A stretch of DNA of 25,781 bases, from IMG/VR virus record IMGVR_UViG_3300032893_000257, positions 1-25,781 of that record, one strand, 5' to 3'. A program made the translations under genes and the position numbers. Shown here in pieces: positions 4,255 through 24,185 of this stretch (positions are counted from its first letter, which is position 1; the number at the start of each line of letters is the position of its first letter). The notes beneath the pieces are model-generated. The model was not told the DNA's origin. It made no database searches and saw only the letters and a list, made by a program, of their open reading frames with translations. The DNA comes from a virus.

Positions 4255-4395
4255 GGCAGACCTCGTTGGTGTGGATGATGGCTGGAGGATACGCGAGGAG
4301 GTGGCTTCCGGCAACGAGCTCAGTTGAGCAGGAGAATAGGGTCGGAACAACTTGTACCCTGAACTCGCGCATAAGAGGAATTTTCAGAATTTCTG

Positions 4396-4430
4396 CCCGC
4401 AATTAATAATTATTAATCGCCGTCAATAAA
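4396..4430 (+). repeat. AT-rich palindromic repeat, copy 1 of 8
   Basis: Perfect 16-bp palindrome ATTAATAATTATTAAT at 4402-4417, flanked by CCCGCA on the left and CGCCGTCAATAA on the right. The right flank GC(C/G)GTCA(A/T) is shared by all copies on the + strand, which gives the element a direction. This copy sits in the divergent region between packaging and early operons. Confidence 0.9.
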
Positions 4431-4816: not shown

Positions 4817-4922
4817 GTGCTACCATCCTGTTGGTTGCTAGTAGCAGGTGCGTGGGGATGGGGAGGCCCGGCATTGTACTTACCCGCGAGCTAAGGGGCC
4901 GAAAAAAGATAGCAGATTGTTG

Positions 4923-4950
4923 TTGACAGACCCTGTGCATGTGCTATTAT
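4923..4950 (+). promoter_or_regulatory. Strong sigma70-type early promoter
   Basis: Consensus -35 TTGACA (4923-4928), 16-base spacer, -10 TATTAT (4945-4950) preceded by TGC, i.e. an extended -10. Transcription would start near 4957, giving a leader of about 33 bases before the first early gene at 4990. This is the best host-type promoter in the window and probably drives the rightward early operon. Confidence 0.85.
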
Positions 4951-4989
4951 TCAATCAACGCAACGCAGTAACTAAACAGGAGCAGGAAC

Positions 4990-5199
4990 ATGATTACTAA
5001 GGAACAGGCAATGACGGCGCGCAATTTTGAGCATGTTTCGCTCAAGAATGCTGACGGTACTCCAGTACGATGCCGTGTGAATGGCGCATGCAAAACGTGG
5101 AAAACGCGCACTGCGGATTTCAAATTGCCGGTCAAGTACGGCCTGAAGCAGTGTTTCTATATCGACAACACCAATGCACATGAATGGGTGTGCGCGTAA
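4990..5199 (+). CDS. Small early protein of unknown function (69 aa)
   Basis: First gene of the rightward early operon, preceded by AGGAGC about 9 bases before the ATG and by the strong promoter at 4923-4950. The protein is basic and contains KNADGTPVRCRVNG followed by KTWKTR, a pattern I associate with small uncharacterised proteins common in phages and plasmids; no catalytic motif is visible. The product is expected to be cytosolic. The stop codon lies only 2 bases before the hammerhead ribozyme at 5202-5254, so its mRNA would end in the upstream cleavage fragment. Confidence 0.8.
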   Translation: MITKEQAMTARNFEHVSLKNADGTPVRCRVNGACKTWKTRTADFKLPVKYGLKQCFYIDNTNAHEWVCA

Positions 5200-5201
5200 C
5201 A

Positions 5202-5254
5202 GATCGAAACGGCCCCTGCGGCCGTCCACACGTTAGGCGTGTGCTGATGAGATC
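5202..5254 (+). ncRNA. Hammerhead ribozyme 1, type II, complete core
   Basis: All conserved core positions are present. Stem II outer strand GATC (5202-5205), GAA (5206-5208), stem III ACGGCC/GGCCGT (5209-5214/5220-5225) with loop CCTGC, cleavage base C5226, stem I CACACG/CGTGTG (5227-5232/5238-5243) with loop TTAGG, catalytic box CTGATGA (5244-5250), stem II GATC (5251-5254). The A15.1-U16.1 and G10.1-C11.1 pairs are intact. Predicted cleavage is between 5226 and 5227. With stem II open this is the type II permutation. It lies in the 73 bases between the stop at 5199 and the ATG at 5273, on the coding strand. Confidence 0.93.
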
Positions 5255-5272
5255 AATTTGTGAGGTGATGTG

Positions 5273-5530
5273 ATGGAATTTGAGCGCGTCAAATCCGGCG
5301 AATACGCAGGGCAGTTTGTGCGGCTGCCTGTAGTGAAATTGAACCAAAAAATCGTGAATGCACCGCGATCCGGGCGCACCGTTTCCGGTTATGGGAAGAA
5401 TCTTGCAACCAATTACATGGTGCGCACGGTTGATAACAAGTGGCGCCGTGTGTATGCCGTGTGCTACTCCAATGCTTCGACGCTGTATGTGAGAATCGGT
5501 GGAAGCCGTGTGATCGTTGATTTGCTGTGA
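5273..5530 (+). CDS. Early protein of unknown function (85 aa)
   Basis: The ATG at 5273 was preferred over an in-frame GTG one codon earlier because TGAGGTGATG lies just upstream. The protein is rich in basic and aromatic residues, starts MEFERVKSGEYAGQ and ends in short beta-like segments (RRVYAVCYSN, STLYVRIGG, RVIVDLL), suggesting a small beta-rich fold. No family recognised. It is the first cistron downstream of hammerhead 1; after cleavage its mRNA would begin with the 5'-hydroxyl fragment from 5227. The next gene follows after 9 bases. Confidence 0.75.
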   Translation: MEFERVKSGEYAGQFVRLPVVKLNQKIVNAPRSGRTVSGYGKNLATNYMVRTVDNKWRRVYAVCYSNASTLYVRIGGSRVIVDLL

Positions 5531-5539
5531 GGTGATGCA

Positions 5540-5749
5540 ATGCCCCGTTACCGTTCGACCCTATGTGAAACCCGCAACCTGCGTACAGGCGCGGTGAGGT
5601 ACTATATTGAGAAGTGCGGCGCATTCCAACGTGTGGATGCACGGGAATTCTTCGCGCGGTACAATCTCGCGGATGATTACGAGTGCCTGCACCACAATGA
5701 ATCCCGTGGCGTGCGTCGGTTTTACACAACTATCGTATGGAGTGAGTGA
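5540..5749 (+). CDS. Early protein of unknown function (69 aa)
   Basis: Ribosome site GTGAGGTGATG precedes the ATG, almost the same leader as the previous gene. The protein begins MPRYRSTLCETRNLRTGAVR and contains several aromatic and arginine residues (FFARYN, RRFYTTIVW). It resembles small uncharacterised phage proteins with an R-N-L-(R/K)-T-G motif, but I know no function. The stop lies 2 bases before the start of the following gene, so translation is probably coupled. Confidence 0.75.
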   Translation: MPRYRSTLCETRNLRTGAVRYYIEKCGAFQRVDAREFFARYNLADDYECLHHNESRGVRRFYTTIVWSE

Positions 5750-5751
5750 AA

Positions 5752-6264
5752 ATGAAACTGCAATTCGATTGGACGCGAGTGAAAAACGACGTCAATGGCA
5801 ACCCGCGCTATGTCTGTCACTTCCTGGCGCTGAACACGGAAGCCGAGCGCAACGCAACCGGCGAGAACTGGATTCCGACTCAGGACAAGTACGCGATCGC
5901 CTGCAAGCGCGCTAACCGCATCGGCGGCCGCAAGTTTCACAACAAACAATACGGTGGCGGCGTTGTGTTTCAGTCTTACTCGCTTGACGAGACGCGCGCA
6001 GCGATCGCCCGTGTTATCCAAGCCGACGAGCGCGAAGTAGCCCAGCGTGCTAACTGCTACTGGATCGTTGACGACGTGATTGGCGAATCCGGGCGCGAGG
6101 GGTTCGAGGTCATGCACGGCAATGCAGACACCGCTGAAGGCTACAGCCAGTCTGCGCACAAAACGCTAAAGGCGGCGATTGCAAGCATTCCCAAGGGCGA
6201 GCCTGTGTACCGCGTTCGACTGGCGCGCCGGAACGGTGCGCACAGTGTTAAGCGGATCGCGTAA
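5752..6264 (+). CDS. Early protein of unknown function (170 aa)
   Basis: The ATG at 5752 was chosen over an in-frame GTG at 5746, which overlaps the previous stop. The N-terminal half carries NDVNGNPRYVCHFLAL and a basic KRANRIGGRKFHNKQYGGG segment. The C-terminal half has helical stretches and ends with a basic LARRNGAHSVKRIA tail. Length and composition resemble proteins found in phage and plasmid accessory regions; no function is known to me. Last gene of the first early cluster: a stem-loop and a probable terminator follow at 6292-6370. Confidence 0.78.
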   Translation: MKLQFDWTRVKNDVNGNPRYVCHFLALNTEAERNATGENWIPTQDKYAIACKRANRIGGRKFHNKQYGGGVVFQSYSLDETRAAIARVIQADEREVAQRANCYWIVDDVIGESGREGFEVMHGNADTAEGYSQSAHKTLKAAIASIPKGEPVYRVRLARRNGAHSVKRIA

Positions 6265-6291
6265 CCCGTGCCCAACCGCTTCACCCTGATA

Positions 6292-6319
6292 GCCCGGGAA
6301 ATCCTCAGAATTCCCGGGC
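6292..6319 (+). other. 9-bp stem-loop after the first early cluster
   Basis: GCCCGGGAA (6292-6300) pairs perfectly with TTCCCGGGC (6311-6319) around a 10-base loop. No T-run follows, so it is not a classical terminator. It may protect the 3' end or act with the terminator 18 bases downstream. CTGATA lies directly before it and GAAAC directly after it, imitating half a hammerhead core (see rejected items). Confidence 0.6.
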
Positions 6320-6336
6320 GAAACGAAAGAAAACAG

Positions 6337-6370
6337 GCCGCGCTCAACGTAAGCAAAATGCGCGGCTTTT
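6337..6370 (+). terminator. Probable rho-independent terminator
   Basis: GCCGCGC (6337-6343) pairs with GCGCGGC (6360-6366) around a 16-base loop and is followed by TTTT (6367-6370). It lies between the gene ending at 6264 and the one starting at 6434. The large loop and short T-run make it moderate in strength. Confidence 0.6.
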
Positions 6371-6433
6371 CCGATCATTACACCCTGCAGCGTTTCTTGA
6401 CGCTGTGCGATGCAGATTAAGCGAGCCCACAAA

Positions 6434-6901
6434 ATGACGACTATCAACGAAACCATCCGCACGGCAATGGCAAAAGCATTTTTCGCGAGCGCTTGGGCCG
6501 ATACACAAGAAGAGAAAGACTCGGACGACGAAACCCGGATCAACCTATCCGGTTGTGAGATCATGGACATCATTGAAAACGAGGACATCGATCCGGCCGC
6601 GCTGCGTGCCGCGAAAACGCTGGAGTTCGACCTAAGCCGCGATAACCCGCTCTGGCGCGCGCAACCCGGCAAAGCCGACTTCGAAAATTTCCTGCAGGAT
6701 CTGTTCAAACTCGCGCAATCGTGCGAACGCACGGAATACGCCGATCGTGACCTGACGCCCGAAAACTTCGGTCACTATCTCGCCATGCAGGCAATGGGAC
6801 ACGGCGTAGGGCTTGCGGATGCGTTCGGCTCTGCTGTCTACAATGCGATCAAAGTTCCTTATGTGGAGTTCGGCTCCCACTCGCTCGAACGCGATTATTG
6901 A
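6434..6901 (+). CDS. Acidic early protein of unknown function (155 aa)
   Basis: The ATG at 6434 is preferred over 6410, although both have weak ribosome sites (AAGCGAG upstream of 6434). The protein opens MTTINETIRTAMAKAFFASAWAD, has an acidic patch QEEKDSDDE, and carries the segment DLTPENFGHYLAMQAMGHGVGLADAFG, which I associate with a small-protein family common in phages but of unknown role. Mostly helical by composition, no membrane segment, probably cytosolic. The region after it has hairpins and repeat copy 2. Confidence 0.75.
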   Translation: MTTINETIRTAMAKAFFASAWADTQEEKDSDDETRINLSGCEIMDIIENEDIDPAALRAAKTLEFDLSRDNPLWRAQPGKADFENFLQDLFKLAQSCERTEYADRDLTPENFGHYLAMQAMGHGVGLADAFGSAVYNAIKVPYVEFGSHSLERDY

Positions 6902-6929
6902 CCCTCAAAACCCCCGATACCCCATAGGC

Positions 6930-7013
6930 GAAGCTGGCGCAATATCGACGCCGGCTTCTCTCACGTCTGAGCCTGAAACAACGAACGCTTTACCGGCCCC
7001 TCCAACAGGCCGG
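6930..7013 (+). other. Two stem-loops in a gene-free stretch
   Basis: GAAGCTGGCG (6930-6939) pairs with CGCCGGCTTC (6949-6958), a 10-bp stem with one G-U pair. CCGGCC (6993-6998) pairs with GGCCGG (7008-7013), flanked by GCCTG and CAGGC that could extend the second structure. There is no T-run. They sit between the gene ending at 6901 and repeat copy 2. They could stabilise a 3' end; no class recognised. Confidence 0.5.
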
Positions 7014-7040
7014 ATCACCAGGCTAACTATCGAATAATTG

Positions 7041-7074
7041 GCCGCGATTAAAAATTATTAATGGCGGTCAATAA
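7041..7074 (+). repeat. AT-rich palindromic repeat, copy 2 of 8
   Basis: Core ATTAAAAATTATTAAT (7047-7062) has one mismatch to the consensus. Flanks are GCCGCG and GGCGGTCAATAA. It lies 18 bases upstream of the small membrane-protein gene at 7092, whose ribosome site starts just after it. Confidence 0.9.
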
Positions 7075-7091
7075 ATGACCGAGGCATACTG

Positions 7092-7241
7092 ATGAAACAT
7101 CACCGATTCGCGCAAACGTGGCGCACCCTCAAAACCGCGAACATCCACACATCCGCCACGGCTGAATTGTGGGCACTCAGCATCGCGTGCCTGATGGTCG
7201 CGGGGTTTATGGTGTGGGGTGTGAACCTGTTGTGTGATTGA
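7092..7241 (+). CDS. Small single-pass membrane protein (49 aa)
   Basis: The ATG at 7092 has GAGG 7 bases upstream. After a basic N-terminus (MKHHRFAQTWRTLKT) comes one hydrophobic segment, LWALSIACLMVAGFMVWGV, consistent with a single transmembrane helix with the N-terminus inside. No known family. It lies directly behind repeat copy 2. Its stop codon is 2 bases before the third hammerhead-like structure (7244-7310). Small membrane proteins in early phage regions are often host-takeover or exclusion factors; that role here is speculation. Confidence 0.65.
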   Translation: MKHHRFAQTWRTLKTANIHTSATAELWALSIACLMVAGFMVWGVNLLCD

Positions 7242-7243
7242 CA

Positions 7244-7310
7244 GACCGAAACACGGCGCACCACTCAATGCGTGCCGTGTCGATGCGTGAGGTGCATCCT
7301 GACGATGGTC
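7244..7310 (+). ncRNA. Hammerhead ribozyme 2, type II, one extra core base
   Basis: GACC (7244-7247), GAA (7248-7250), stem III ACACGGC/GCCGTGT (7251-7257/7274-7280), cleavage base C7281, stem I GATGCG/TGCATC (7282-7287/7293-7298, last pair G-U) with loop TGAGG, box CTGACGA (7299-7305; position 7 is variable in the family), then an extra T7306 before GGTC (7307-7310) closing stem II. The extra base falls between A9 and position 10.1. The plus-strand hammerhead of chrysanthemum chlorotic mottle viroid is known to carry an extra nucleotide at this place and still cleave. Predicted cut 7281/7282. Confidence 0.75.
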
Positions 7311-7337
7311 AGACTAACTCTTTACAGGATTTTTATT

Positions 7338-7505
7338 ATGGCGCGTCACTTCGGCCCGCAGCATGTCAAGAACGGTTATGCCGCTATGGGCCCCGCAATC
7401 GGTCGCCCGATGTACAAGGGAATCAATGCCAACAAAACGATTGCGGAAGCAATCGCTGCTGAACGTCGAAAGGCGGCAAAGGCAGCAGCTATCAAAAAGA
7501 AGTAA
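7338..7505 (+). CDS. Small basic early protein (55 aa)
   Basis: The ATG at 7338 has CAGGA 8 bases upstream. The open frame extends up to 7272, but that extension lies inside the ribozyme and has no ribosome site. The sequence begins MARHFGPQHVKNGYAAMGP and ends in a strongly basic helix with AAERRKAAKAAAIKKK, suggesting nucleic-acid or ribosome contact. No family recognised. It lies between hammerheads 2 and 3, so two cleavages would release it as an almost monocistronic mRNA. Confidence 0.7.
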   Translation: MARHFGPQHVKNGYAAMGPAIGRPMYKGINANKTIAEAIAAERRKAAKAAAIKKK

Positions 7506-7513
7506 GCAACTCA

Positions 7514-7567
7514 AGGTCGAAACCCCCGAAAGGGGGTCGGTATGTAATGCATACCCTGATGAGACCT
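7514..7567 (+). ncRNA. Hammerhead ribozyme 3, type II, complete core
   Basis: Stem II AGGTC (7514-7518), GAA (7519-7521), stem III ACCCCC/GGGGGT (7522-7527/7532-7537) closed by a GAAA tetraloop, cleavage base C7538, stem I GGTATG/CATACC (7539-7544/7550-7555) with loop TAATG, box CTGATGA (7556-7562), stem II GACCT (7563-7567). All core residues and the A15.1-U16.1 and G10.1-C11.1 pairs match the hammerhead consensus. Predicted cut 7538/7539. It lies between the stop at 7505 and the ATG at 7602, on the coding strand. Confidence 0.95.
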
Positions 7568-7601
7568 ACTCAATCTCATAGAAACCATTGGGGGCTCAAC
7601 C

Positions 7602-7769
7602 ATGGCATACGGCGACAAACGGGATTACCCGAAAATTGACATTCTCTCTCACGACGGGAAATACCTTTGCTCAACTACATGGGCGCGCACCATTCGGGAA
7701 GCCGAACAAAGGTATGTTGCGGCGCATCCTGAACATATCCCCGTCCGTGCAGTTCGCGCAGGCAAGTAA
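7602..7769 (+). CDS. Small early protein of unknown function (55 aa)
   Basis: The ATG at 7602 follows the leader ATTGGGGGCTCAACC. Sequence opens MAYGDKRDYPKIDILSHDGK and contains YLCSTTWARTIREAEQRYVA, a short helical region with several arginines. It has the look of the many small phage proteins of the form 'K-I-D-I-L...DGKY(L/V)CST' that modify or bind host factors, but no function is known to me. A longer open frame starting at 7588 runs in another frame and is the 5' extension of the next gene, not a gene itself. Confidence 0.7.
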   Translation: MAYGDKRDYPKIDILSHDGKYLCSTTWARTIREAEQRYVAAHPEHIPVRAVRAGK

Positions 7770-8713: not shown

Positions 8714-8736
8714 CCAGCCCGTGGATGCATTTTCCG

Positions 8737-8770
8737 ACCGCCATTAATAATTATTAATTGCCGTCAATAA
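8737..8770 (+). repeat. AT-rich palindromic repeat, copy 3 of 8
   Basis: Perfect core ATTAATAATTATTAAT (8743-8758), left flank ACCGCC, right flank TGCCGTCAATAA. It lies between the 24-residue gene and the terminator-like hairpin at 8787. Confidence 0.92.
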
Positions 8771-10240: not shown

Positions 10241-10279
10241 GCCCCCTTAGTCTCACGGCTAAGGGGGCTTTCTTCTTTT
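10241..10279 (+). terminator. Strong rho-independent terminator
   Basis: GCCCCCTTAG (10241-10250) pairs perfectly with CTAAGGGGGC (10259-10268) around an 8-base loop, followed by TTTCTTCTTTT. It ends the transcript of the 9430 gene and the structured region after it. Confidence 0.9.
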
Positions 10280-12785: not shown

Positions 12786-12818
12786 CTTGCTCGACAACGG
12801 CTGTTTTTAGGTGCATTA

Positions 12819-12854
12819 TTGACCGCAGTTAATAATTATTAATAGCGGTCAATT
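12819..12854 (+). repeat. AT-rich palindromic repeat, copy 5 of 8 (most symmetrical flanks)
   Basis: Core GTTAATAATTATTAAT (12828-12843), one mismatch. Here the flanks also pair: TTGACCGC on the left mirrors GCGGTCAA on the right, so the whole element is a near-perfect palindrome of about 33 bp. It ends 14 bases before the GTG start at 12868, overlapping the ribosome-binding leader. Confidence 0.92.
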
Positions 12855-17220: not shown

Positions 17221-17559
17221 ATGTTCACACGGCATTTTCACGTTGAAGGGAAGTATTTGGGCAGCAGGGAGGAGGGGCTGCAGTACATTCACGGTGAACT
17301 ACACCAGCCTCAGCACTACGCTTACTTCTGCCCGGAGTGTGGGGATACGTGGGCGCGTCTGCCTGTTGATGGTGTGACCACCCCGAATTGGTGGAGAATC
17401 ATGGGTGGAAATTGCAGGAAGCACCCTGGCCCGTCGAGGTTCATCATCCCAGGCAGCTTGCTGCTGTCATGGGATGAGAAGTTTGGAGAGAACCTGCCTG
17501 ATGATGTCATCAGGTGGGAATTTGAACGGCATTTAGCTATTTTGAAGGAACCAGCATGA
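17221..17559 (+). CDS. Putative zinc-binding protein (112 aa)
   Basis: The ATG at 17221 lies downstream of the promoter; the frame to 17179 overlaps that promoter. CPEC (C37-C40) and C65-x2-H68 form a plausible zinc-binding set within a sequence rich in aromatic residues (YAYFCPECGDTWARL). The C-terminal part (DDVIRWEFERHLAIL) is helical. Function unknown. It overlaps the Sak4-like gene start by ATGA, suggesting a working link with recombination. Confidence 0.72.
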   Translation: MFTRHFHVEGKYLGSREEGLQYIHGELHQPQHYAYFCPECGDTWARLPVDGVTTPNWWRIMGGNCRKHPGPSRFIIPGSLLLSWDEKFGENLPDDVIRWEFERHLAILKEPA

Positions 17560-18398
17560 CCGAACAGCAAAAAACCAGCTCCCTTCCCGGCGTCAATGTC
17601 CTGCTCATGGGGCCAGCCGGTACGGGCAAAACCCACGCAATCGGCACGATGGTCGATGCAGGTGTCGAGGTGTTCTATTTGGCCCTTGAACCTGGCCTCG
17701 AATCTCTTTTGGGTTACTGGACGGACAAGGGAAAACCCATCCCCGACAACCTGCATTGGCACGTTCTCGAAGCCTCGAAGGCCAGCTTTCTTGACCTGAT
17801 GGACAGCGCCAAAAAGATCAACACGATGGCGCTCGACACTCTGGCCAAGACGCAAGATCCGAACCGCTCAAAGCACAACCAATTCATCCAAATGCTGGAG
17901 GTGTTGAATGACTTCCCTGATGACCGTACTGGACAAAAGTTTGGATGCGTGGATACTTGGACTCCTTCGCGCGCCCTTGTTGTCGACGGAATGGCCGGCC
18001 TCGCCCGTGCCGCCATGTCCCTTGTCATCGGGGGTAAACCCGTCAAAAACCAATCCGACTGGGGGATTGCGCAAGACCAGATCGAGAAAATTGTCAGGAT
18101 GTGGACGGATAACTGCAAATGCCACTTCGTCCTTATTGCGCACGTCGAGCGTGAACAGGATGCGATTCTGGGAGGTATCAAGCTCATGGTCAGCACACTC
18201 GGCAAGGCCCTCGCACCGAAACTTCCGCCCATGTTTAGCGATGTCATCCTCACGGTACGCGAGGGCGCGAAGTTTACTTGGGACACTGGTAACGGGCAGG
18301 CCGATGTGAAGACCCGGAATTTGGCGATCCAAGCAGGCCTGTCTCCGGACTTCGGGCCGATTATCAACAAGTGGAAATCTCGTGGGGGTGCATTGTGA
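17556..18398 (+). CDS. Sak4-like RecA-family ATPase (280 aa)
   Basis: Walker A GPAGTGKT (19-26), Walker B LVVDG (141-145), and a HFVLIAHVE strand typical of the AAA_24/Sak4 group of single-strand annealing ATPases. The C-terminal part has TRNLAIQAGLSPDFGPII. Phage Sak4 proteins work with a partner single-strand-binding protein in homologous recombination. Both the nuclease (15856) and the probable single-strand-binding protein (18833) are neighbours here, which supports the assignment. Length fits the family. The stop overlaps the next start as GTGA. Confidence 0.88.
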   Translation: MTEQQKTSSLPGVNVLLMGPAGTGKTHAIGTMVDAGVEVFYLALEPGLESLLGYWTDKGKPIPDNLHWHVLEASKASFLDLMDSAKKINTMALDTLAKTQDPNRSKHNQFIQMLEVLNDFPDDRTGQKFGCVDTWTPSRALVVDGMAGLARAAMSLVIGGKPVKNQSDWGIAQDQIEKIVRMWTDNCKCHFVLIAHVEREQDAILGGIKLMVSTLGKALAPKLPPMFSDVILTVREGAKFTWDTGNGQADVKTRNLAIQAGLSPDFGPIINKWKSRGGAL

Positions 18399-18550: not shown

Positions 18551-18675
18551 TGGGAGATACTTTTCGAGTAATGATGGTAGTGTGCGCCGTTGCGGTGATG
18601 TTGCTCATCTTGGCTCCTCTCTGGATTCCTCTCGTATTCGCATGGATTGGTCTTGTGGCCTTCCTTTCCCAATAA
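18550..18675 (+). CDS. Small membrane protein (41 aa)
   Basis: ATG within the previous stop (TGATG), GGAGG 9 bases upstream. A hydrophobic run of about 33 residues (MMVVCAVAVMLLILAPLWIP then LVFAWIGLVAFLS) forms one long or two short transmembrane helices. No family. It ends the operon just before repeat copy 6. Membrane location in an early operon may imply host interference; this is speculation. Confidence 0.6.
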   Translation: MGDTFRVMMVVCAVAVMLLILAPLWIPLVFAWIGLVAFLSQ

Positions 18676-18678
18676 TTG

Positions 18679-18712
18679 CCCGCTATTAATAATTATTAAT
18701 AGCGGTCATTAA
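18679..18712 (+). repeat. AT-rich palindromic repeat, copy 6 of 8
   Basis: Perfect core ATTAATAATTATTAAT (18685-18700), left flank CCCGCT, right flank AGCGGTCATTAA. It lies between the small membrane-protein gene and the hairpin leader of the single-strand-binding protein gene. Confidence 0.92.
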
Positions 18713-18747
18713 AAAACTTCACAAAACCCTGTTGCACCCTTAGCACC

Positions 18748-21374: not shown

Positions 21375-23783
21375 ATGGCACTGCTCAGAATCAAAGGTGT
21401 TGGCCCACTTCACCCCAAAATCATGATCGTCGGTGAATGGCCGCATGAGGCTGACCTTCGCAAAGGCGAGCCGTTCATCGGTGGGGTGGGGTTTGAATTC
21501 ACCAAGATGCTGCAAGAGGCAGGCATTCGCCGTGATGACTGCTATTTGACCACGGTGATGAAAACCCGCGTGTTCCCCGGCACGAAGCTGATTGCGACTA
21601 CGAAGAAGGAAATCACCCCGCAGCACATCTTTTTCCAGGGAGAGCATGTTCTCCCCGAACTCTACGATGCCGCGATGGAGTTGCGTCGGGAGATTGAGCA
21701 AACCCGCCCCAATGTGATCTGCGTCTCCGGTGATGTGGCGTTGTGGGCGCTCACAGGACAAACCTCCTCCCACTCATGGCGCTCGTCCATCATGGATAGC
21801 GTGCTGGTCGAGGGGATCAAGGTAATCCCAACACTCTCTTTCAACCTCGTGCATGTGCAGTGGGCGAAGCGGCCATGGATCGTACATGATTTGAAGAGGG
21901 TGCTGCGGAACAGCCTGACTCCGGGACTTTTTACCCGCGATTATAAATTTTTAATAGCGGTCAATAATTCGGATGAGCAGTTCCAATCGGTACGCAATCA
22001 GTTGGAATCCCTCATCACTTCCGCACGCACGCACCTCGAAACCTTCGACACCCGTCTGGAAGTCTCCGGCGACATCGAAACCCGCAAGGGCCACATTTCC
22101 TGCATTGCCTTCGGCTGGTCGAACACCGAAGCATTGTGCATCCAGTTCATGAAAACCAACTCCCCCGAGGGGTTTTGGGAAACTGAGCAGGAAGCTGAAT
22201 TCGTTTACCTCATCCGACAGCTTGCCAAGTACGTGCAATTGATTGGACAGAACTGGAACTATGATGCCCAGTATATTTTCCGACATTGGGGGTTCCTGTT
22301 CGACCACGTTGACGACACGATGATCCGTCAGCACTCGGCATTCAGCAATCTCCCCAAAAATCTCGCGTTCCTCTCTTCGATGTATTGCGAAGACCACCTG
22401 TACTGGAAGGACGATCGGGTGAATTGGGAGGAGGGGCAGGATGGCGAAGGGGAAATGCAGTACTGGCGGTACAATTGCACCGATGCCGTGCGTACTTATG
22501 CCATCAATAACGTCCTGAAAGGTGTTCTCAAGGGCATGGGCTTGGAGACAGTCTATGACTTCCAGTCCACCCTCCGCCCCAAAGTCCTCAAAACCATGAT
22601 TCGCGGTGTTCGTGTGAACAACAAGTTGCGTGGGGAATTTTCCATGCAGCTCATGGAAGAGGCTGGCAAGCGTGTGCAATGGATGCGTGACGTCCTCGGC
22701 TATGAACTAAACATCCGCTCCCCCAAGCAGCTCCAGGATTTCTTTTACCGCCAGATGGGTCTCAAGCCCCTGATGGATCGCAAGACAGGTAGTGTAACAA
22801 CCGATGATGCCGCCCTACGTACGATTGCTGCTCGTGAGCCGATCCTACTTCCAATTACCCGCAAGATTGCCGAACTTCGAAGCCTTGGCGTGTTCCATTC
22901 TACGTTCGTACTCGCACCGCTTGATCGAGACGGCCGTATGCGGTGCACATTTAACTTGTGCGGAACGGAAACCTATCGATTCGCATCCTCGAAGAACGCC
23001 TTTGACACTGGAATGAACATGCAGAACATTCCGAAGGGCGGGGAGACTGAGGACGATGGTCTCGAACTCCCGAACATTCGGAAGCTGTTCATTCCTGATG
23101 AGGGGATGGGGTTCTTTGACATCGACCTCGATAGTGCTGACCTGCGGATCGTGACGTGGGAGAGTGATTGTGCGTGGATGAAGGAGCATTTCAAGAACGG
23201 TCGCAAGCCCTACGTGGAAGTTATGCGTGAGTACTACCACGACAACACCATGACCAAAAACTCGCACCCACGCGAATATGCAATGTTTAAGAGCCTGTGC
23301 CACGGGACTAACTATCTCGGCACGGCGGACGGCATTGCACCGCGTATTGGGCTGAACGTCCACGAAACTGAGCGTATTCAGAAGTGGTACTTTGAACTAG
23401 CCCCTGAAATCCGCAAATGGCAGGAGAACGTCAAGAAGCAGGTGTCTAGTCGTCGCTACGTTGAGAACGCATTCGGTTATCGCAACTACTTCTTTGACAA
23501 AATTGAAGGCACGATCTTCAATCAAGCGGTTGCCTGGATTCCGCAGAGTACGGTTGCGTGCCTGATTAACCGTGCCTACGTTGCAATCGATGACAACATG
23601 CCAGAAGTGGAAATCCTCCTGCAAGTGCACGACTCACTCGCAGGACAATTCCCACTCCGCAAAAAGGAGGAAATGCTGAAGGGTATTCAGGAACACGCAA
23701 CCATTGCGATTCCATACGACGATCCGCTGTACATTCCTGTTGGTGTTGTGAGCAGTGCTAACTCTTGGGGAGATTGTGATTAA
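21375..23783 (+). CDS. DNA polymerase I with N-terminal uracil-glycosylase-like domain (802 aa)
   Basis: Leader ATAGGCTCAATTTA before the ATG. Residues about 1-178 resemble family-4-type uracil-DNA glycosylases (GEWPHEADLRKGEPFIGGVG, FTKMLQEAGI, YLTTVMKTR, CVSGDVALWALTG). The expected Fe-S cysteines and the HP(A/S) loop are absent; SFN stands there. Exonuclease: DIE at 233-235, GQNWNYDAQ, YNCTDA. Polymerase: motif A DLDSADLRIV, motif B KSLCHGTNYLG, motif C VHD (751-753). The replicative polymerase of this phage; the extra domain may sense or remove uracil. Residues 187-198 are encoded by palindrome copy 7. Confidence 0.93.
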   Translation: MALLRIKGVGPLHPKIMIVGEWPHEADLRKGEPFIGGVGFEFTKMLQEAGIRRDDCYLTTVMKTRVFPGTKLIATTKKEITPQHIFFQGEHVLPELYDAAMELRREIEQTRPNVICVSGDVALWALTGQTSSHSWRSSIMDSVLVEGIKVIPTLSFNLVHVQWAKRPWIVHDLKRVLRNSLTPGLFTRDYKFLIAVNNSDEQFQSVRNQLESLITSARTHLETFDTRLEVSGDIETRKGHISCIAFGWSNTEALCIQFMKTNSPEGFWETEQEAEFVYLIRQLAKYVQLIGQNWNYDAQYIFRHWGFLFDHVDDTMIRQHSAFSNLPKNLAFLSSMYCEDHLYWKDDRVNWEEGQDGEGEMQYWRYNCTDAVRTYAINNVLKGVLKGMGLETVYDFQSTLRPKVLKTMIRGVRVNNKLRGEFSMQLMEEAGKRVQWMRDVLGYELNIRSPKQLQDFFYRQMGLKPLMDRKTGSVTTDDAALRTIAAREPILLPITRKIAELRSLGVFHSTFVLAPLDRDGRMRCTFNLCGTETYRFASSKNAFDTGMNMQNIPKGGETEDDGLELPNIRKLFIPDEGMGFFDIDLDSADLRIVTWESDCAWMKEHFKNGRKPYVEVMREYYHDNTMTKNSHPREYAMFKSLCHGTNYLGTADGIAPRIGLNVHETERIQKWYFELAPEIRKWQENVKKQVSSRRYVENAFGYRNYFFDKIEGTIFNQAVAWIPQSTVACLINRAYVAIDDNMPEVEILLQVHDSLAGQFPLRKKEEMLKGIQEHATIAIPYDDPLYIPVGVVSSANSWGDCD
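21933..21967 (+). repeat. AT-rich palindromic repeat, copy 7 of 8, inside the polymerase gene
   Basis: Core ATTATAAATTTTTAAT (21940-21955), three mismatches to the consensus; flanks ACCCGCG and AGCGGTCAATAA are as in the others. It is read in frame as TRDYKFLIAVNN (residues 187-198), exactly between the glycosylase-like and exonuclease domains. This is the only copy in a gene. Confidence 0.88.
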
Positions 23784-24114: not shown

Positions 24115-24148
24115 AAAAAACCCCGCTCTCAGGCGGGGTTTTCTTTTT
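24115..24148. terminator. Bidirectional rho-independent terminator
   Basis: CCCCGC (24121-24126) pairs with GCGGGG (24133-24138), 6-base loop, with TTTTCTTTTT after it and AAAAAA before it, so it works for both strands. It lies between the convergent early (+) and lysis (-) modules. Confidence 0.92.
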
Positions 24149-24151
24149 CCA

Positions 24152-24185
24152 ACCGCGATTAATAATTATTAATCGCCGTCAGAAA
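24152..24185 (+). repeat. AT-rich palindromic repeat, copy 8 of 8
   Basis: Perfect core ATTAATAATTATTAAT (24158-24173), left flank ACCGCG, right flank CGCCGTCAGAAA (the least conserved tail). It lies between the terminator and the 3' end of the last lysis-module gene, i.e. between convergent genes, so it cannot be a simple upstream operator there. Confidence 0.92.

Follow-up and report, generated by a model that had tools for sequence, protein, structure and literature searches.

We analysed a 25,781-nucleotide (nt) stretch of viral DNA, hereafter the window, which comprises positions 1 to 25,781 of the IMG/VR record IMGVR_UViG_3300032893_000257 and carries three predicted hammerhead ribozymes (HH1 to HH3) between the genes of an early operon. 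The record belongs to an uncultured tailed phage encoding a Dda-like helicase, an exonuclease, a Sak4-like annealing protein, a methyltransferase and a DNA polymerase, and at 25.8 kb it is probably a fragment of a larger genome. The features of the locus are listed below, together with the state of the neighbouring genes in two related contigs, L123 and L042 (aa, amino acids; bp, base pairs; ssDNA, single-stranded DNA). A promoter and a terminator-like hairpin enclose all three ribozymes.

4923..4950, + strand: strong sigma-70-like early promoter, TTGACA-16-TATTAT, 11 of 12 consensus bases
4990..5199, + strand: gene A, 69 aa, function unknown, 5' of HH1; identical in L123, replaced in L042
5202-5254 (5201 with its 5' A), + strand: HH1, type II hammerhead; predicted cut 5226/5227
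5273..5530, + strand: gene B, 85 aa, phrog_3436, function unknown, 3' of HH1; replaced in L123 and L042
5540..5749, + strand: gene C, 69 aa, phrog_5293, function unknown; absent from L123
7092..7241, + strand: gene F, 49 aa, 5' of HH2
7244-7310, + strand: HH2, type II hammerhead; extra U at 7306, next to A9; predicted cut 7281/7282
7338..7505, + strand: gene G, 55 aa, the sole gene between HH2 and HH3
7514-7567, + strand: HH3, type II hammerhead; predicted cut 7538/7539
7602..7769, + strand: gene H, 55 aa, 3' of HH3
10241-10268, + strand: terminator-like hairpin, 12 bp, possible end of the early transcript
17556..18398, + strand: gene for a Sak4-like ssDNA annealing protein (phrog_124, E 3e-18)

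Three hammerheads in one early operon

An earlier note on this DNA had placed three hammerheads on the coding strand at these sites. Scanning both strands for the three hammerhead topologies with a strict descriptor (CUGANGA, GAAA, U16.1, H17 and all three stems) returned exactly these three, all of type II, and no further hammerhead of any type on either strand of the window; the same descriptor found no type II hammerhead in 400 simulated windows matched in dinucleotide composition. Each of the three copies brings CUGANGA, GAAA, A15.1-U16.1 and H17 together at a three-helix junction, with stems I and III closed by loops and stem II open. The 6-bp stem I and 5-base loop of the form T-N-A-K-G that the note had described were confirmed on the sequence of all three (HH1, CACACG-TTAGG-CGTGTG; HH2, GATGCG-TGAGG-TGCATC, with an inner G.U pair; HH3, GGTATG-TAATG-CATACC). 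The spacing also agreed: the ribozymes begin 2, 2 and 8 nt after the preceding stop codons, which end at 5199, 7241 and 7505, and end 18, 27 and 34 nt before the following ATG codons at 5273, 7338 and 7602.

An independent covariance model, trained on 50 ribozymes from contigs other than the window, recovered HH1, HH2 and HH3 with 62.7, 30.9 and 70.4 bits (E 2e-17, 2e-7 and 8e-20), the next-best matches over the window lying on the minus strand with an E of 0.05. Unconstrained folding of the segments around HH1 and HH3 gives the hammerhead as the best structure in both cases. The Rfam model Hammerhead_II (RF02276) scored HH1 at 29.1 and HH3 at 22.5 bits, below its gathering cut-off of 37, and did not detect HH2. 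Hammerheads cleave themselves 3' of H17, leaving a 5'-OH and a 2',3'-cyclic phosphate. By sequence and by analogy with published relatives, the three elements are most readily taken as self-cleaving type II hammerhead ribozymes, whose cuts would divide the presumed early transcript into four pieces carrying gene A, genes B to F, gene G, and gene H onwards. The expectation that cleavage yields near-monocistronic pieces holds for the first piece (gene A) and for 7282-7538 (gene G), but not beyond these two of the four, because 5227-7281 carries five to six genes.

A compact type II subclass, often fused to stop codons

The window ribozymes are members of a compact subclass of type II that is common in viral contigs, with a 6-bp stem I, a T-N-A-K-G loop, a 4-bp stem II, an invariant A 5' of stem II and no loop I pseudoknot. 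A DNA pattern specifying the core and the loop matched at least 120 stretches in IMG/VR, and a slightly stricter one matched 92 stretches in bacterial genome contigs. Among the matches listed from IMG/VR, stem I paired at 6/6 positions in 143 of 144 distinct sequences and all three stems formed in 138 of 144, a test that is not circular since the pattern made no demand on pairing. The base immediately 5' of the 4-bp stem II, left unspecified in the pattern, was A in 144/144 of these listed matches. Furthermore, among 56 ribozymes that were found by the descriptor and missed by the pattern, this A was present in 52 and the first base of loop I was U in 50. The conserved tertiary contact that the earlier note had suspected is therefore likely, resting on the loop U and the invariant A, and by analogy these two bases may form the counterpart of the loop I/loop II pair of type I and III hammerheads. 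A pseudoknot between loop I and the 3' tail was also considered and rejected, as it could form in 15 of 279 copies compared with 17.3 expected with swapped tails, showing no excess.

The stem pairs covary: both sides had changed in 14 of 16, in rows chosen with a descriptor that demands pairing. The catalytic core was intact in 268 copies, most of them retrieved by the core pattern, and bore a single change in 5, with none found on reversed sequence. Whole records contain up to 11 copies, grouped within one region, and ribozymes of the same contig are more alike at variable positions than those of different contigs (60% versus 43%). Among the loci tested, three copies, all in the nine-ribozyme contig L016, passed the RF02276 cut-off, and there was no match to this model in 16 other multi-ribozyme loci; a DNA search with L016 returned no annotated relatives.

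The position of the ribozymes relative to genes is equally regular. With genes in the comparison contigs called by a simple custom caller, 274 of 279 unique type II copies lay outside called genes, and the upstream gene was on the ribozyme strand in 264 of 269 cases. Stem II mostly starts between -1 and +5 nt from the stop codon, often abutting or overlapping it, and mostly ends 16-32 nt before the following start, which leaves space for a Shine-Dalgarno sequence. In 43 of the 48 cases with a one-base overlap (-1) the stop codon is TAG, whose A then serves as the invariant A and whose G forms the first base of stem II; overall, the stop codon supplies the invariant A in 83 of 200 close cases. 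Adjacent ribozymes in other contigs share a strand in all 111 pairs and enclose exactly one gene in 70 of them.

Two further observations concern the ribozymes of related loci. Stem II is weakened, or the core altered at one position (U16.1G, U4C, G12U or G5A), in L298:3539-3594, L299:2718-2773, two copies of L016, L078 and L288; these altered ribozymes adjoin intact copies in array contigs and may represent decaying joints. In addition, loci with relatives of gene D (L134, L149, L181, L183, L184, L187, L188, L193, L196-L198 and L200-L202) carry type I hammerheads that separate a stop codon from the following start and have GGTTAA/TTAACC as stem I; in most of these loci that start belongs to the gene D homologue itself. 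Cleavage there would leave a leader of ~18 nt, an equivalent placement reached with another topology.

Exchange of reading frames around ribozyme linkers

The earlier note had named conservation in close relatives as its own test and had asked whether the ribozymes keep their positions between the same or different genes. All three are kept in L123, which is 98% identical to the window downstream of 6274 and 94% identical upstream of 4985, and HH1 is kept in L042, whose left arm is 73% identical; the position of HH1 is retained in both while flanking open reading frames (ORFs) have been replaced. In L123, HH1 and gene A are identical to those of the window and homology ends just past the ATG of gene B, with one different ORF in place of genes B and C; HH2 differs at one loop position and has a G-C pair in place of the G.U in stem I, and HH3 is identical. 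In L042, both ORFs flanking HH1 are unrelated to genes A and B. Its HH1 lies at the same position, with stem II changed from GATC/GATC to GGTC/GACC in a compensatory manner and stem III rebuilt and still paired, which argues for selection on the RNA at this locus.

The closest named relative by DNA polymerase, Manatee Spring phage (MW202489, 50% identity), contained no hammerhead, and neither did L309-L311, which carry gene A relatives (65% identity), by the strict descriptor, nor L309 by the covariance model. As separate observations on L123, the promoter segment (window 4901-5000) is duplicated there (5010-5110 and 5382-5485) with an 87-aa ORF between the copies, so that a promoter-plus-gene unit was either gained before gene A in L123 or lost from the window. 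Side matches in the BLAST comparison of the two contigs revealed dispersed stretches of ~33-46 nt, 83-92% alike and in both orientations, which lie in the window at 4390-4429, 8731-8770, 12816-12854, 18671-18716, 21935-21967 and 24145-24181.

We then compared ribozyme junctions with ribozyme-free junctions of similar length (55-160 nt) taken from the same pairs of related contigs, scoring the homology of flanking ORFs at the protein level. This count replaced one of shared junctions, in which many short matches could be paralogous ribozymes. Outside a large Mu-like group, 25 of 34 shared linkers had at least one unrelated flanking ORF, and both were unrelated in 20, compared with 2 of 14 control junctions (Fisher p 3e-4, just a guide, as the contig pairs are not independent). 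Within the Mu-like group, a replaced ORF was found at 353 of 674 ribozyme linkers and at 3 of 221 control junctions. The breakpoints lie at most a few nt from the stop codon and from the ATG, and the leader between ribozyme and ATG was at least 75% identical in 21 of the 34 linkers, 15 of which have a replaced ORF. Judged by these sequence comparisons, related phages retain the stop-ribozyme-leader-ATG linker but differ in one or both of the ORFs beside it, and such replacement is far commoner where a ribozyme forms the joint than at intergenic junctions of other kinds.

The clearest case is a linker of ~110 nt that is near-identical in L297, L298, L299 and L301 while the flanking ORFs differ, with just L297 and L301 having flanking ORFs in common. 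This linker (L297:3031-3145) and its orthologues also contain an extra GC-rich hairpin, CCCGCGCATGCGGG, between stop codon and ribozyme, with paired changes in L297. The sampled member of the large group, L219, carries Mu-like phage genes; L219 and ~50 further loci, mostly from metagenome-assembled genomes of Gastranaerophilales (Melainabacteria), in many cases have two hammerheads ~360 nt apart, and their flanking genes are often replaced.

Recognisable genes beside the ribozymes encode Mu Gam, ArdA, RusA, a host nuclease inhibitor and anti-repressors, although most neighbours have no known function. The 25 most frequent families beside ribozymes include no structural gene. Control genes from the same contigs, which do include terminases, matched about twice as many families. 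Three anti-defence or takeover types (ArdA, Mu Gam and the host nuclease inhibitor) occur beside ribozymes, in counts too small to speak of enrichment.

Considering the structure, conserved core and placement of the ribozymes and the exchange of ORFs around them, all read from sequence, we propose that they are self-cleaving joints that end one message and start the next, permitting the exchange of single early genes (estimated probability roughly 0.72). The early transcript would be cut 3' of C5226, C7281 and C7538. Given type II topology and hammerhead chemistry, the message 5' of each cut would terminate in a 2',3'-cyclic phosphate one base past the stem III hairpin, and the message 3' of the cut would carry a 5'-OH directly at the stem I hairpin and continue into a short leader. 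Both message ends would thereby be protected and the messages made independent of their neighbours. As each joint would come with a 3' end and a 5' leader of its own, a flanking ORF could be replaced from ATG to stop with the neighbours untouched. The joint itself may also provide the homology for recombination; cleavage would render the exchange tolerable and recombination would use the joint, with the Sak4-like protein as a candidate recombinase.

Several points weigh against this proposal. Cleavage in the window phage is deduced from sequence and from published relatives, and HH2 is the least regular of the three copies, with a different structure predicted in the unconstrained fold of its segment and one extra U between A9 and stem II; this base is U in 39/39 copies that have one, however, which identifies it as a regular variant. 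Weakened or broken ribozymes at some joints of relatives (L298, L299 and L016) imply that cleavage is not obligatory at every joint. Besides the non-independence of the contig pairs, paralogous ribozymes of one array may lie behind some of the linker matches. Finally, selection on the ribozyme could by itself leave conserved linkers next to fast-changing ORFs, as a by-product with no function in exchange.

The last point leads to the strongest rival, in which the ribozymes serve in processing only: the cuts set the stability and translation of the mRNA of each gene, and the exchange reflects fast-changing accessory genes among which the ribozyme is the sole conserved remnant. Processing is the role put forward by Perreault et al. 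2011 (PMC3088659), and the neighbours of the ribozymes are indeed of accessory types, unlike the control genes with their terminases. A sole conserved remnant, however, would not account for breakpoints so close, a few bases at most, to stop codon and ATG, for the identity of a leader that the ribozyme does not constrain, or for the rarity of replacement at control junctions of 55-160 nt, and we consider this explanation improbable, though one to be taken seriously.

A translation-coupled switch, in which the 5' strand of the ribozyme is masked by the ribosome terminating there and cutting occurs only when the upstream gene is untranslated, would fit the close spacing of stop codon and stem II, the preference for TAG at -1 and the frequent supply of the conserved A by the stop codon. 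Tight packing alone, however, yields short gaps (the median at other junctions is 17 nt), and HH3 lies 8 nt from its stop codon, making such a switch very unlikely. Single genes between repeated hairpins also resemble a cassette array, and attC sites can occur in phages (PMC9892861), but we rejected the idea that the elements are integron attC-like recombination sites acting as DNA: it is the unpaired catalytic core that is conserved while the stems vary, the upstream gene is on the ribozyme strand in nearly all cases, RYYYAAC and GTTRRRY boxes are both present in only 4 of 279 linkers, and searches with 20 window proteins recognised no integrase. Even though a few copies are broken and those of one contig resemble each other, we likewise dismiss non-functional relics spread by duplication, given the compensatory changes in the HH1 orthologue, the near-universally intact cores and the retention of all three ribozymes in L123.

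Returning to exchange at self-cleaving joints, we raise only tentatively, and with less than even confidence, the broader idea that stop-codon-fused joints constitute a general plug-in system of phages, the linker being both RNA processing site and recombination joint and the uncharacterised cargo perhaps enriched in anti-defence or takeover genes. If so, an exchanged ORF would carry no regulatory baggage and be expressed as its own message, and the joints would offer a route to further anti-defence and takeover genes.

Comparison with known systems

The earlier note knew of no phage system with several hammerheads used in this manner, a statement refuted by Perreault et al. 2011 (PMC3088659). 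That paper describes clustered hammerheads that flank single genes or short blocks in prophages, among them the ardA locus of Agrobacterium tumefaciens, Clostridium scindens and Azorhizobium caulinodans. It suggests that long phage transcripts are processed to single-gene mRNAs, and reports in vitro cleavage, which for A. tumefaciens was also shown in E. coli. It also notes that the identity of flanking genes varies, that many of the hammerheads lack a pseudoknot and that ardA lies beside hammerheads. With three ribozymes in 2.4 kb of a phage record, the window has the features of clustered prophage hammerheads and is a new example of this known arrangement. It shares with those arrays the occurrence of several hammerheads per phage region, around single genes or short blocks, whereas stop-codon fusion, the invariant A and the exchange of ORFs from stop to ATG are not described in the accessible part of that paper. 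The open-access literature, which leaves subscription journals mostly uncovered, held no account of stop-codon fusion or of ORF exchange at ribozyme linkers, and their novelty is accordingly provisional. A 2017 review (PMC6155905) again connects hammerheads with phages and treats what they do in prokaryotes as an open question.

The window subclass has the core of RF02276, with stems I and III closed and stem II open, but differs in lacking the pseudoknot between loop I and the 3' tail, in its 4-bp stem II and T-N-A-K-G loop, and in scores below the cut-off. Loop I and loop II of type I and III hammerheads are joined by a conserved reverse Hoogsteen pair (PMC6155905); its equivalent here could be the loop U together with the invariant A, even though the open stem II of the window subclass has no loop II. 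Integron cassettes with attC sites in phages (PMC9892861) are alike in that single exchangeable genes lie between repeated structured joints, which in the present case would be strand-specific catalytic RNA and not a folded DNA site, with attC box pairs as rare as stated above and no integrase recognised.

Compared with these systems, the compact subclass, the stop-codon fusion and the exchange of ORFs around kept linkers are what the present analysis adds. The subclass model recovers ribozymes that fall below the Rfam cut-off, and the joints flag small accessory genes of unknown function that could be screened for anti-defence activity. Finally, the linker pattern makes the role of phage hammerheads testable, through defined RNA ends, recombination within the linker and neighbour-independent expression of a swapped ORF.

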